A DNA stretch of 56,798 nt from Pelagibacteraceae bacterium AG-422-B15 (GTDB lineage Bacteria > Pseudomonadota > Alphaproteobacteria > Pelagibacterales > AG-422-B15). Location of the stretch: contig CAJJBG010000037.1 of the NCBI GenBank assembly GCA_905182345.1, forward strand, positions 1-56,798. The letters run 5' to 3'. The notes under the pieces were generated by a model. That model was not told the origin of the DNA. It searched no databases and was given only the letters and a program-made list of their open reading frames with translations. The translations under genes were made by a program, and so were the position numbers. Numbering within the stretch: the first letter of the stretch is position 1; every line of letters starts with the position of its first letter. This document shows positions 34,645-43,942 of this stretch, in pieces.

Positions 34645-35565
34645 TTACATTAACAAACTATCAATTAGTAAAATTGCAAAAATATTAAATAAAAATATAA
34701 TTGTAAAATAAAAAAACTGCTGAGCTTTTTTTTCAAAATCTATACTATCAATTGGCACACTTCTTAACTTAAATGACAGATAAACAAAGATTACACTCAG
34801 ACTAAATGAAGCAATTGTATAAAAGTATGAATAAAATAATCCTAAACTTACTGTCACTGGAAATAAAATAACACTATACATAACAATCATATTTAATGTT
34901 CTTTTGAGGCCAACAACAACTGGCATCATTGGAATTCCTGCTTTCTTGTACTCACCTGAGCGATATAAGGCTAAAGCCCAGAAGTGTGGTGGCGTCCATA
35001 AAAATATTATTACAAAAATTATTATCGGTTCATATGTTAAAGATCCTGAGATAGCCGCCCAACCTATCATTGGAGGGAATGCTCCAGCAGCTCCACCTAT
35101 AACAATGTTTTGTGGCGTTCTTCGCTTTAGCCATATTGTATAAACAAAAACATAATAAACTATCGTCAATAATAATAAGGACGCTGCCAATATATTAGAA
35201 GAATAATATAAAATAATTATTGATATCAATGATAGTACCGTTCCAAAAATCAATGCACTATTTGGGGAAATTATTCCAGCAGGTATGGCCCTGTTCATTG
35301 TTCTTGTCATAAGTTTATCAGTATCTCTTTCATACCACATATTTAGTGCACCTGAGGCTCCAGATCCGATCGATATTGCCAGAATAATTAGGCAACTCAT
35401 AAGAAGCGGTTTCTCTCCTGGTGCAATCATCATGCCAACAAAGCTTGTGAAGATAGATAAAGACATTACCCTTGGTTTTAATAAGGAAAAGTAAGCTTTT
35501 ATTCTAAAGATTGCCCCATTATTGCCGAGATTTTTTTCTTGTTCCAGAGTTGTTATATTTGACAA
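34645..35565 (-). CDS. ctaB: Protoheme IX farnesyltransferase (heme o synthase)
   Basis: CtaB farnesylates heme b to heme o, the precursor of heme a. The 306-residue UbiA-superfamily membrane protein has KPRVMSLSIFTSFVGM, the Asp-rich NMWYERDTDKLMTRTMNRAIP, IVIGGAAGAFPPMIGWAA and TPPHFWALALYRSGEYKKAGIPM. It starts 12 bases after ctaD. It needs heme b and farnesyl diphosphate, linking to hemF and ispE in this window. Confidence 0.96.
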   Translation of the reverse strand: MSNITTLEQEKNLGNNGAIFRIKAYFSLLKPRVMSLSIFTSFVGMMIAPGEKPLLMSCLIILAISIGSGASGALNMWYERDTDKLMTRTMNRAIPAGIISPNSALIFGTVLSLISIIILYYSSNILAASLLLLTIVYYVFVYTIWLKRRTPQNIVIGGAAGAFPPMIGWAAISGSLTYEPIIIFVIIFLWTPPHFWALALYRSGEYKKAGIPMMPVVVGLKRTLNMIVMYSVILFPVTVSLGLFYSYFYTIASFSLSVIFVYLSFKLRSVPIDSIDFEKKAQQFFYFTIIFLFNIFAILLIDSLLM

Positions 35566-39641: not shown

Positions 39642-40976
39642 TTAAAATGATAGCTCTTCATAAAGCTTTTTAAAATCACTATTCCAGTCGCCTTTAAATC
39701 TATTAAGTATTCTTGAACTTGCAACTTCTTTAGTCTTTAAAATATTAAATAAATATTCAAGGAATATTGTTTCGTTGTCTCCAGATACATTAAAATATTT
39801 TCTTTTTTCTAGTCCATGAGTTGCTATTTCTAAAATCTCTTCTGTTATTCTCCAGCCACTTTTATTATCTATTATCGCATCTAATCCTGTTTTTGCACTT
39901 TCGATCTTAAAATTTAAAATATCATTTAGCTTCCAGTTTTTAATAATATCATGACTAGCATCTAATGTTTCAGGATCGTATAACAATCCTGTCCATAATG
40001 CTGGTAATGAACATAGCGAGCCATAGCTCCCTGCGTCAGCTCCACGCATTTCAATATATGTTTTTAATCTTACTTCAGTAAATATTGTAGAAACATGTGT
40101 CAACCAGTCATCTATTGTAATTTCATCTGGCTTAACTTGATTATTTTTACCATCTAATAAGTCTTTAAAAGTATATTTAGTTGTATCAATGTATGAATTA
40201 TTTCGAGCAATAAAATAAACAGGTACGCCTAAAAGATAGTCTGTATACTCCTCAAAACTAAACTTTTCCTTTAACATGCCAGGCAATATTCCAGTTCTAT
40301 TTTTATCAGTGTTATCCCAAACTAAGCTTCGGTAAGATAAGTGGCCATTAGGAGCTCCATTCTTAAATGGTGAATTTGCAAAAAGGCCTGTGGCTAAAGG
40401 CTGTAAAGCAGCTGAAACATTAACTTTCTTTGCCATATCTTCTTCAGAAAAAAAATCAAAGTTAGCTTGAACAGTGCAAGTTTGATACATCATCTCCAAC
40501 CCCAACCCTCCCAAGCTTTCCATATAAGGTGTCATAATTTGCTGGTATCTTTTTTTTGGCACTTTAGGCATGTCTTTTAATTCGCCAAGCGGAATAAAAC
40601 CTATGCCTAAAAAACCAATATTAAATTCTTCTTCTAAAGATTTAGTAAAACTAAGATGGCTATTAATTTCTCGACAGGTTTCATGTAGATTTATTAACGG
40701 TGCACCCGATAACTCAAATTGACCACCTGGCTCTAATGTCACACTAGCACCATCTTTAGTTGCTCCAATAAGCTCACTCCCTTCCTTTACTGGCTCCCAG
40801 CCATCTTGTACAAATTTTTTTAAAATAGCAGATATACTTCTATTTCCATCAAAAGGTATTGGTGACAGATCATCTTTATCATAAATAAATTTTTCATGCT
40901 CAGTTCCAATTTTTTCTGAACCTTTAGACTTTGCTCCGTCTAAAAAATAGTTAACTAAATCATGTTTTGTTAGCAT
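39642..40976 (-). CDS. gshA: Glutamate-cysteine ligase, plant/alphaproteobacterial type
   Basis: GshA makes gamma-glutamylcysteine, the first step of glutathione. The 444-residue protein shows GTEHEKF, DGASVTLEPGGQFELSGAP, the MMYQTCTVQANFDFFSEEDM segment and EMRGADAG, all typical of the type found in plants and alphaproteobacteria. It overlaps rsmE by 7 bases. Glutathione could feed the peroxiredoxin at 28.4 kb. Its stop abuts that of tldD (TAATTA). Confidence 0.94.
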   Translation of the reverse strand: MLTKHDLVNYFLDGAKSKGSEKIGTEHEKFIYDKDDLSPIPFDGNRSISAILKKFVQDGWEPVKEGSELIGATKDGASVTLEPGGQFELSGAPLINLHETCREINSHLSFTKSLEEEFNIGFLGIGFIPLGELKDMPKVPKKRYQQIMTPYMESLGGLGLEMMYQTCTVQANFDFFSEEDMAKKVNVSAALQPLATGLFANSPFKNGAPNGHLSYRSLVWDNTDKNRTGILPGMLKEKFSFEEYTDYLLGVPVYFIARNNSYIDTTKYTFKDLLDGKNNQVKPDEITIDDWLTHVSTIFTEVRLKTYIEMRGADAGSYGSLCSLPALWTGLLYDPETLDASHDIIKNWKLNDILNFKIESAKTGLDAIIDNKSGWRITEEILEIATHGLEKRKYFNVSGDNETIFLEYLFNILKTKEVASSRILNRFKGDWNSDFKKLYEELSF

Positions 40977-41692
40977 TTAGTTAGGCTATCCTTTATTAAT
41001 GCAGTTGCAACTATTGCTGCTGTTTCTCCCTTTAAAATGTTATGGCCTAATGATGTCTCAATGATATTTTTGTTAGTCTTTATGGCATTAATTTCCTTTT
41101 CAGAAAAATCACCTTCTGGGCCTATTAATATTGAAATACAAGTATGCGTTGAGCCTCTTAATATTGAACTTATAGTTACATCTATACATTCAACAGTACA
41201 TGCAATAACTAATTCATTTTTTTCAATATTTTTAATAAATTCGATAAAGCTAGTTGTTTGATAAATTTTTGGAATGGATAGTTGTTCTGATTGCTCAACC
41301 GCTTCAATGGCAATCAGTCTTAAGCGTTCAGTATTAATTTTAGAAATATTAGTATGTTCCATTGTTACTGGTTGAAATATAGTGATTCCAATTTCAGTGC
41401 ATTTTTGAATAAGCACTTCATTGGGCGTTCTTTTAAGCGGCGAGAAATAGAGTTTTATTTCCTTATTATTTTTTCTATCTCTAGTCTTTTTATCAATAGC
41501 AATTATTATTTTTTTTGATTGAATATTTTTAATTATTGCCAGCCATTCTCCATCATTATTAAAGATAAGAATTTGCTCATCAACCTTACATCTCAATACG
41601 TTTAATAGATAATGCGCAATTTTATTCGTAAGAATAATTTGTTCTTCTATTTTAATTATTTGATCTAGAAAGATTCTATTTCTAATTTTCAT
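40970..41692 (-). CDS. rsmE: 16S rRNA (uracil-1498 N3)-methyltransferase
   Basis: RsmE is a SPOUT methyltransferase acting on 16S rRNA. The 240-residue protein has an N-terminal PUA-like domain (HYLLNVLRCKVDEQILIFNNDGEW), RTPNEVLIQKCTEIGITIFQPV, and the SAM knot ILIGPEGDFSEKEINAI with SLGHNILKGETAAIVA. It is divergent from ubiA and leads gshA in a two-gene unit, an arrangement shared with other alphaproteobacteria. Confidence 0.93.
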   Translation of the reverse strand: MKIRNRIFLDQIIKIEEQIILTNKIAHYLLNVLRCKVDEQILIFNNDGEWLAIIKNIQSKKIIIAIDKKTRDRKNNKEIKLYFSPLKRTPNEVLIQKCTEIGITIFQPVTMEHTNISKINTERLRLIAIEAVEQSEQLSIPKIYQTTSFIEFIKNIEKNELVIACTVECIDVTISSILRGSTHTCISILIGPEGDFSEKEINAIKTNKNIIETSLGHNILKGETAAIVATALIKDSLTKC

Positions 41693-41741
41693 GATATATT
41701 TAGCTATTATTAATTCTTTATTAGTTATACTTTTACTACTG

Positions 41742-42609
41742 ATGAATACTAAATTAAATTCTTATATAATACTAACAAGATTAAATCGTCCTACAGGATC
41801 ATTTCTTCTAATGTTTCCATGTCTCTGGGGATTATTAGCCGCATGTAAATCATTTTCAGATATAAAATATAATTTTTTTTTTATTTATAATCTTTATTTT
41901 AGGCTCTTTCATAATGAGATCTGCAGGCTGCGTAATAAATGATATATTTGATAGAAACATAGATGCACAAGTAGAAAGAACCAAGGACAGGCCTTTGGCT
42001 AATAATTCTATTACACTGCATGAAGCTCTGGTGATATTTTTTACCTTATCCCTAATAGGGCTTTGTATTTTATTAAGTCTTAACTGGATATCGATTCAAA
42101 TTGGCTTTTTTTCATTTGTACTATTAATACTCTACCCTCTAACAAAACGGATAACTCATTGGCCTCAACTAATGTTAGCATTAACTTTCAATACTGGAGT
42201 GTTGATTGCTTACTCTGCTATAACTAACTCTATATCAATTGATGTGTTGTTTTTATACTTAGCAGGAATTTTTTGGACATTAGGCTATGACACAATTTAT
42301 GCTTATCAAGATATAGATGATGATCTCTCGATTGGAGTTAAATCAACGGCCATTCTATTTGGAGAACAGTCAAAATACTGGATTTCATCTTTTTATGGCT
42401 TTATGACACTAAGTCTTTTGATGTTTGGCTATCTTTCATCTCAAAATGTACTGTTCTATATCTGCTTAATATTCATTTTTGCCCAACAAATTAGTCAAAT
42501 AATAAAACTAGATATTAAAAAACCTGAGGTATGTCTTGCAATATTTAAAAGTAATCAGTATCTAGGATTACTCATTTGTATAGGACTGGTATCAAGTTAT
42601 ATTTACTAA
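41742..42609 (+). CDS. ubiA: 4-hydroxybenzoate polyprenyltransferase UbiA, interrupted by a frameshift
   Basis: UbiA prenylates 4-hydroxybenzoate in ubiquinone synthesis. The gene is read in two frames. The first, from the ATG at 41742 (or 41691), gives YIILTRLNRPTGSFLLMFPC and stops after 41942. The second, from before 41914, gives GSFIMRSAGCVINDIFDRNID and all later motifs (YQDIDDD, FKSNQYLGLL). The switch falls in a run of ten T at 41873-41882; removing one T restores one protein of about 288 residues. It may be an assembly error, a real mutation, or corrected by slippage. pmbA follows at once. Confidence 0.85.
41873..41882 (+). repeat. T10 homopolymer at the ubiA frameshift
   Basis: Ten consecutive T residues mark the point where the ubiA frame shifts by +1. 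A frame-0 reading holds to this run, and the frame-1 reading opens 8 bases before it (after a TAA at 41863-41865), so the run is the most economical place for the change. Confidence 0.8.
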
Positions 42610-42610
42610 T

Positions 42611-43942
42611 ATGGAATTCAATAATTTAGCTAATCAAATCATCGAAAAAACTAAAGCAGCTGGTGCAACAGACTGTGACATTGTACTTGCTAAAGCAACA
42701 GGTAAATCAGTTTCATGTAGATTGGGAAAGATTGAAGACATAGAAGAATCTTCTGATAAAACTTTTGGAATTAGAGCGCTGATAGGTTCTCGGCAATCAT
42801 TTGTTTCATCTTCAAATTTTGATACAAAAAATATTGATACTCTTGTTACAAAAGTTGTTGAGATGGCCAAGCTTGCCCCAGAAGATGATACGGCATGTCT
42901 AGGAGATTCATCTAAATTAGAAACTGAGTTTGCTGAACTTGATTTATGTCAAAACTATGAAACTGATACGGCTATAATGGTTGAGAGTGTAAAAAAATGT
43001 GAAGATCAAGCTATAAGTGTAAAAGGTATAAGTAATTCTGAGGGCGCAGGTGCATCTTACTCAACTGGGGAATTTTTTTTAGCAACGAGTCATGGCTTTG
43101 TTGGAGGCTATAAGTCATCTAGTAATTCTATATCTTGCTCTGTTCTTGCTGGTGAAGGTTTAGCTATGGAACGCGATTATGATTATGCAGTTGCTCGACA
43201 TCATGAAGATTTAACAAATCCAGAAGAGATTGGGGCTAATGCTGCTCGTCTAACATTAAAAAGATTGAATCCTCGAAAAGTTAACTCGTGTAAAACTTCA
43301 GTTGTTTTCGACAAAAGAATTAGTAGTGATATAATTAGGTATGTGGCTGGAGCAATATCAGGCAACTCGATAACTCGTGGTACTAGTTTTTTAAAAGACA
43401 GTCTTAATAAGCAAATTTTTAGAAAAGACATCTCAATTATTGATGACCCAAAAATTACTAGAGGTTTGAAATCAAGCTTGTTTGATGGTGAGGGAGTTAG
43501 GAATCAGAAAACTGAACTAGTAAGTAATGGAGTCTTAAAAACTTGGTTATTAAACACCGCTACCGCAAAAAAATTAAATCTTAAGACTACCGGTCATGCC
43601 TCACGATCTGTTGGCTCACCTCCTGGCACAGGAACTACTAATTTATTTATGGCAAATGGAATGCTCTCTTATGATGATCTTGTGGGCTCTATAAATAATG
43701 GTTTTTATGCAACAGAGCTTATTGGTATGGGTATTAATTTAATTACAGGTGACTACAGTATGGGTGCAAGTGGGTTTTGGATTGAAAATGGTGAATTAGC
43801 CTATCCTGTTAGTGAGGTAACAATTGCATCTAATCTTACTGAGATGTTCTTAAATTTGTCTGCAGCTAACGATTTAGAATTTAAATTTGGCTCAAATGCT
43901 CCTACAATATGCATAGAAGGCATGACATTGGCCGGAAAATAG
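42611..43942 (+). CDS. pmbA: Metallopeptidase PmbA/TldE
   Basis: PmbA (TldE) is the non-catalytic or partner half of the TldD/TldE protease. The 443-residue protein has the N-terminal DIVLAKATGKSVSCR, the FGIRALIGSRQSFVSSS segment, ASYSTGEFFLATSHGF, and the C-terminal GMGINLITGDYSMGASGFWIENG. It lacks the HExxxH of TldD, as usual. Its start follows the ubiA stop by 1 base. Confidence 0.94.
   Translation: MEFNNLANQIIEKTKAAGATDCDIVLAKATGKSVSCRLGKIEDIEESSDKTFGIRALIGSRQSFVSSSNFDTKNIDTLVTKVVEMAKLAPEDDTACLGDSSKLETEFAELDLCQNYETDTAIMVESVKKCEDQAISVKGISNSEGAGASYSTGEFFLATSHGFVGGYKSSSNSISCSVLAGEGLAMERDYDYAVARHHEDLTNPEEIGANAARLTLKRLNPRKVNSCKTSVVFDKRISSDIIRYVAGAISGNSITRGTSFLKDSLNKQIFRKDISIIDDPKITRGLKSSLFDGEGVRNQKTELVSNGVLKTWLLNTATAKKLNLKTTGHASRSVGSPPGTGTTNLFMANGMLSYDDLVGSINNGFYATELIGMGINLITGDYSMGASGFWIENGELAYPVSEVTIASNLTEMFLNLSAANDLEFKFGSNAPTICIEGMTLAGK

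Follow-up and report, generated by a model that had tools for sequence, protein, structure and literature searches.

Homopolymer tracts whose length sets the reading frame are known from phase-variable contingency genes, which are typically surface genes. Frameshifted genes with partial rescue by transcriptional slippage are described from the endosymbionts Buchnera and Blochmannia (PMC3017870, PMC5009743): eight tract-frameshifted genes of Blochmannia are counted as possibly functional (PMC3017870), and corrected transcripts at endosymbiont frameshifts are quoted at 12–50% (PMC5009743). Slippage of the E. coli RNA polymerase takes a run of about 7 T, and at T8 deletion slippage yields reporter at about 10% of the in-frame level (PMC6260861). 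In the Buchnera and E. coli transcriptomes, homopolymers show deletions less often than insertions (PMC5574713). At the DNA level, mutS and mutL are missing in the SAR11 subclades Ic and IIa.A (PMC12374537), and avoidance of long runs has been argued to mark the genomes in which they slip (PMC1088944). The statements with a citation are given as they stand in excerpts of these papers. Judged by titles and abstracts, no paper on a homopolymer frameshift in SAR11 was found; by title, nothing relevant was found on Pelagibacter ubiA or ubiquinone, nor on SAR11 frameshift pseudogenes in single-cell genomes.

The ubiA gene described here is located in a stretch of 56,798 nucleotides from the SAR11 member Pelagibacteraceae bacterium AG-422-B15 (the whole analysed stretch, referred to as the window), and it is split between two frames at a run of ten T. 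As far as the excerpts describe the Buchnera and Blochmannia genes, ubiA resembles them in the AT-rich, reduced genome, in its core function, in the single indel, which falls within an A/T tract some ten bases long and leaves the frame otherwise unbroken, and in showing no accelerated evolution. The protein distance ratio (G000–G004 / G001–G004) of the UbiA C-terminal half is 0.99, and the same ratio has a median of 1.19 across 42 window genes including UbiA. The differences from this type, as excerpted, are that SAR11 is free-living and that ubiA is known here from DNA alone; moreover, the eight Blochmannia cases compare with one here, from the window and a sampled third of the genome, and long runs are depleted in the SAR11 genome. 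With the contingency genes ubiA shares the dependence of its frame on tract length, as well as a high expected slip rate, since MutS was not found. Unlike them, it is a housekeeping and not a surface gene, and the tract is not conserved in relatives. Events of this kind are known; here one affects a gene whose loss would surprise.

The split ubiA gene

The features of the lesion and of its surroundings are as follows.

41742–41942, forward strand: N-terminal half of ubiA, 66 codons and a stop; beyond the T10 the residues no longer follow the UbiA frame; UbiA of the relatives aligns from 41742.
41873–41882, forward strand: T10 tract; the stretch aligned with it is one base shorter in all four same-genus relatives.
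41878–42609, forward strand: C-terminal half of ubiA, with both Asp-rich motifs; frame +1 relative to the N-terminal half; PF01040 match with E 4.5e-56.
40970–41692, reverse strand: 16S rRNA methyltransferase-type gene, RsmE-like by its domains (PF04452, PF20260); divergent neighbour outside the lesion.
42611–43942, forward strand: pmbA/tldE-like gene, intact, directly downstream of ubiA.
34645–35565, reverse strand: ctaB (heme o synthase), the sole other UbiA-fold gene found in the genome and no substitute for ubiA.

The first-pass annotation let the two halves meet in different frames at the T10 (41873–41882) and counted one T too many in a gene otherwise complete. Both points are borne out. 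In tblastn, UbiA of the four same-genus relatives matches 41742–41879 in one frame and then 41902–42603 in another, and the MAFFT alignment places exactly one extra base at the T10 with respect to 4/4 of these relatives, with both Asp-rich motifs kept. The four relatives, with which a comparison had been proposed, have an open ubiA and only short T runs at the tract position. The upstream frame (mechanical ORF 41691–41942) is closed by the stop codon at 41940–41942, and the frame after the T10 stays open up to the ubiA stop at 42607–42609. The gene start at 41691, also given by the first-pass annotation, is that of the mechanical ORF and had to be moved: the N terminus by homology is the ATG at 41742. 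The stretch 41691–41741, which abuts the divergent RNA methyltransferase gene, probably lies outside ubiA.

The C-terminal half alone scores 292.8 bits with TIGR01474 (UbiA), over the curated cut-off of 275.45. Nine residues are invariant across 11 UbiA sequences (N21, D22, D25 and D29, together with Y141, Q144, D145, D148 and D149), forming two Asp-rich clusters which we take to be the active-site motifs. The gene is like that of a 4-hydroxybenzoate polyprenyltransferase (TIGR01474; solved relative 4od4) in its family score over the cut-off and in both motifs, and unlike it in that the one continuous reading frame of the family is broken by one base, the frames being split at the T10. From 380 ORFs of relatives compared with the window, 206 match, and the sole split homologue among them is ubiA (with all four same-genus queries), so the split is no chance finding. 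Two more split matches in the window come from ORFs antisense to ubiA and to ctaB/coxA.

Ubiquinone genes and UbiA in related genomes

The assembly has a completeness of 98.69% and consists of 39 contigs with 1,206,175 bases in total. It had been claimed that the bc1, ETF-QO and oxidase genes of the window depend on ubiquinone, an argument that a second intact ubiA would remove. The claim agrees with the genes found: the window carries cytochrome b, cytochrome c1, Rieske, ETF-QO and the cytochrome c oxidase subunits I and II (a subunit III-like gene is below the curated cut-offs), and the ubiG, ubiB and UbiH-type hydroxylase genes have open frames and score over their cut-offs. Judging by this gene content, the ubiquinone pathway appears to be kept in the genome and ubiquinone appears to be needed. 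A genome-wide search with PF01040 gives two places, ctaB and the split ubiA, with no second ubiA in the 98.69% complete genome, and nothing else found there looks able to replace UbiA.

A TIGR01474 search of 60 genomes (own included) gives a match in 59, with 54 over the cut-off; among the 248 genomes of the order, 231 give a match at E <= 1e-20 and 223 exceed the cut-off. The nearest ubiA among the genomes compared shows 75% DNA identity. The longest A/T run in 31 intact ubiA genes from whole genomes is 9, and the runs are also at most 9 in 17 more ubiA loci from named records, partly of the same genomes. For ctaB, taken as the control gene, 57 of the 58 rows have an open frame of 303–327 codons and one has a frame of 270. 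The viral contigs were also searched and nothing was found.

Eleven of the genomes with the lowest UbiA scores, the window's own left out, were searched again. They are not a set of further frameshifts, as 10/11 merely run into a contig end. Of the SAR11 genomes with ubiA cut by a contig end, 10/10 keep the N-terminal side (L176–L185; a post hoc observation), and no homopolymer common to these ends was seen by eye.

No sign of relaxed selection on ubiA is observed. The C-terminal half evolves no faster than the other window genes (ratios given above), and consequently the frameshift is recent, tolerated or harmless in its effect, or an error.

Mismatch repair and long A/T runs

MutS1 (TIGR01070) was found in 0/25 SAR11 genomes (G000–G015 and G037–G045, own included), with 11/14 of the control genomes positive. 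This absence extends the report on two subclades, as excerpted from PMC12374537, to the family of the window genome.

Among coding runs of 10 or more, the counts are 6 for A, with 23.8 expected (sd 3.8), and 2 for T, with 5.8 expected (sd 1.8). The expected values were obtained by synonymous codon shuffling of 440 genes from the window and the stretches L059–L078. Runs of this length are thus depleted three- to four-fold, with A8 enriched 1.34-fold. Long A/T runs are unstable or costly in the window genome, and the shortage of coding runs of at least 10 makes this cost measurable. Since long runs are depleted and MutS was not found, the tracts are expected to slip in replication and to be selected against.

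Origin of the extra T

The split ubiA most likely goes back to a recent, ordinary slip at a fragile site in the DNA, or to a sequencing error, rather than to a designed genetic switch. The first-pass annotation had listed four explanations without ranking them: an assembly or homopolymer read error, a real recent mutation, transcriptional slippage and programmed frameshifting. Of these, the results favor a recent slip by a single T, be it real or technical, which may be leaky by transcriptional slippage; programmed frameshifting is disfavored.

We tentatively prefer a real, recent and leaky slip mutation, while holding it short of probable. The gene would have been normal and functional until recently, with substitutions in the lineage building up a long coding T tract, presumably of nine T in the ancestor. 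Replication slippage would then have added one T, in a lineage where no MutS mismatch repair was detected, and the extra T would be present in the DNA of the cell and be no product of the sequencing process. RNA polymerase slipping on the U10 (one U fewer or two more) would restore the frame and could leak some full-length UbiA, by which the cell may retain some ubiquinone. The real slip is favored by the one extra base with respect to four relatives in an otherwise intact ubiA, by the open ubiA in the same-genus genomes, by MutS1 not being found and by the depletion of long runs. It is favored further by the lack of relaxed selection, the open ubiG, ubiB and UbiH-type genes, the precedents of slippage leak, and an otherwise clean assembly in which ubiA is the sole split window gene with relatives. 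The estimate of leaky expression is tempered by deletions being rarer than insertions, as stated in the excerpt of PMC5574713, and it speaks against the real slip that living cells should seldom carry a frameshift in a presumably essential gene, unless the leak is sufficient. With a real T10, the locus would be a natural test of frameshift survival in a likely essential gene, in a streamlined free-living organism whose mutS was not detected, and of the capacity of transcription slippage to buffer the ubiA frameshift. With an erroneous T10, it would warn against gene-loss calls at homopolymers in such genomes.

A technical origin, in which whole-genome amplification, PCR, sequencing or assembly added the T at the homopolymer and ubiA of the organism is intact, is a serious possibility, to which we give somewhat less credence. 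The absence of decay in ubiA and the kept pathway are as expected of a really intact gene; a same-genus genome (G004) and others nearby carry isolate names in the style of single-amplified genomes, for which amplification precedes sequencing; and a run above 9 occurs in 0/31 intact ubiA. A lone homopolymer error at the T10 would give the identical sequence picture. A systematic homopolymer fault of the assembly, in contrast, is unlikely. In 456,798 bases (the window and the 20 stretches L059–L078, about a third of the genome beyond the window) 61 A/T runs are at least 9 long, of which 40 lie deep in open ORFs; of the ten ORFs with runs of at least 10 that were scanned, nine contain Pfam domains. 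Both counts weigh against the technical origin, as does the lack of any other split window gene with a relative, which means that such runs are, at the least, not a frequent site of errors. The T10 motif has 24 overlapping matches in the genome, which collapse to 16 runs, and ORF inspection revealed no clearly broken gene at these runs other than ubiA (some are near or in gene starts, or intergenic). A split-frame signature searched for at all runs gives 27 candidates in 4268 tests, with ubiA alone at a run > 7; the remaining 26, all at runs of 6–7, have candidate status only. In the sampled third of the genome 58/527 ORFs of relatives had a match, and the control genomes G001 and G004 show 0 splits among 211 and 195 matches, respectively. 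Widespread frameshift errors were not seen in the window and about a third of the genome.

A fixed dependence on transcriptional slippage, with the species carrying the T10 for long and living on slipped transcripts, appears unlikely. It is consistent with the normal constraint on ubiA, with the AT-rich, reduced genome and with the Buchnera and Blochmannia precedent (excerpts of PMC3017870 and PMC5009743), but the long tract is absent from all four same-genus genomes, and the depletion of runs of 10 or more indicates that they are costly in the window genome.

Another split ubiA occurs in G175, the eleventh of the genomes searched again and a SAR11 genome of another family. Its gene runs through three successive frames owing to two single-base insertions, one base being added at or next to a T7 and the other within a T10 (T runs G175:C5 31999–32005 and 32439–32448). 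In the 80 kb around it, 81/147 ORFs of relatives match and only ubiA is split, the neighbours being intact; among the matches at E <= 1e-5 there is no second ubiA, except for a ctaB-like one. It is very doubtful that in SAR11 without mismatch repair the T tracts of ubiA act as a reversible, slip-driven switch to off or low ubiquinone, leaky via RNA polymerase slippage, with the window genome and, independently, G175 caught in the off state. More doubtful still is a true loss, by which ubiA would be dispensable, or in the course of being lost, in some SAR11 cells: the state of G175 speaks for it, and the other ubi genes, bc1 and ETF-QO kept in the window genome, together with a UbiA over the cut-off throughout most of the order (223/248) and selection that is not relaxed, speak against it.

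Least probable of all is a product made from two frames by programmed ribosomal frameshifting or by re-initiation at the in-frame ATG 41914: this codon does lie just before the first Asp-rich motif and U runs are slippery in general, but the slippery T10 is conserved in 0/4 same-genus genomes, the RNA around the tract shows no structure stimulus (-11.8 vs a shuffle mean of -15.66, z +1.35; 191/200 shuffles equal or exceed it in folding, nested structures only), the -1 shift favored by a U run misses the C-terminal half, which is +1 of the N-terminal half (41742, 41878), and a product from 41914 would be devoid of the N-terminal part kept in all relatives.

Two other runs were observed within ORFs. 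At L036:1427–2041, an ORF of 205 codons with no Pfam match contains an in-frame 13-base A run, a possible further slippage site, and at L053:1362–2849 a photolyase-related (DPRP) gene with an in-frame T10 is intact.
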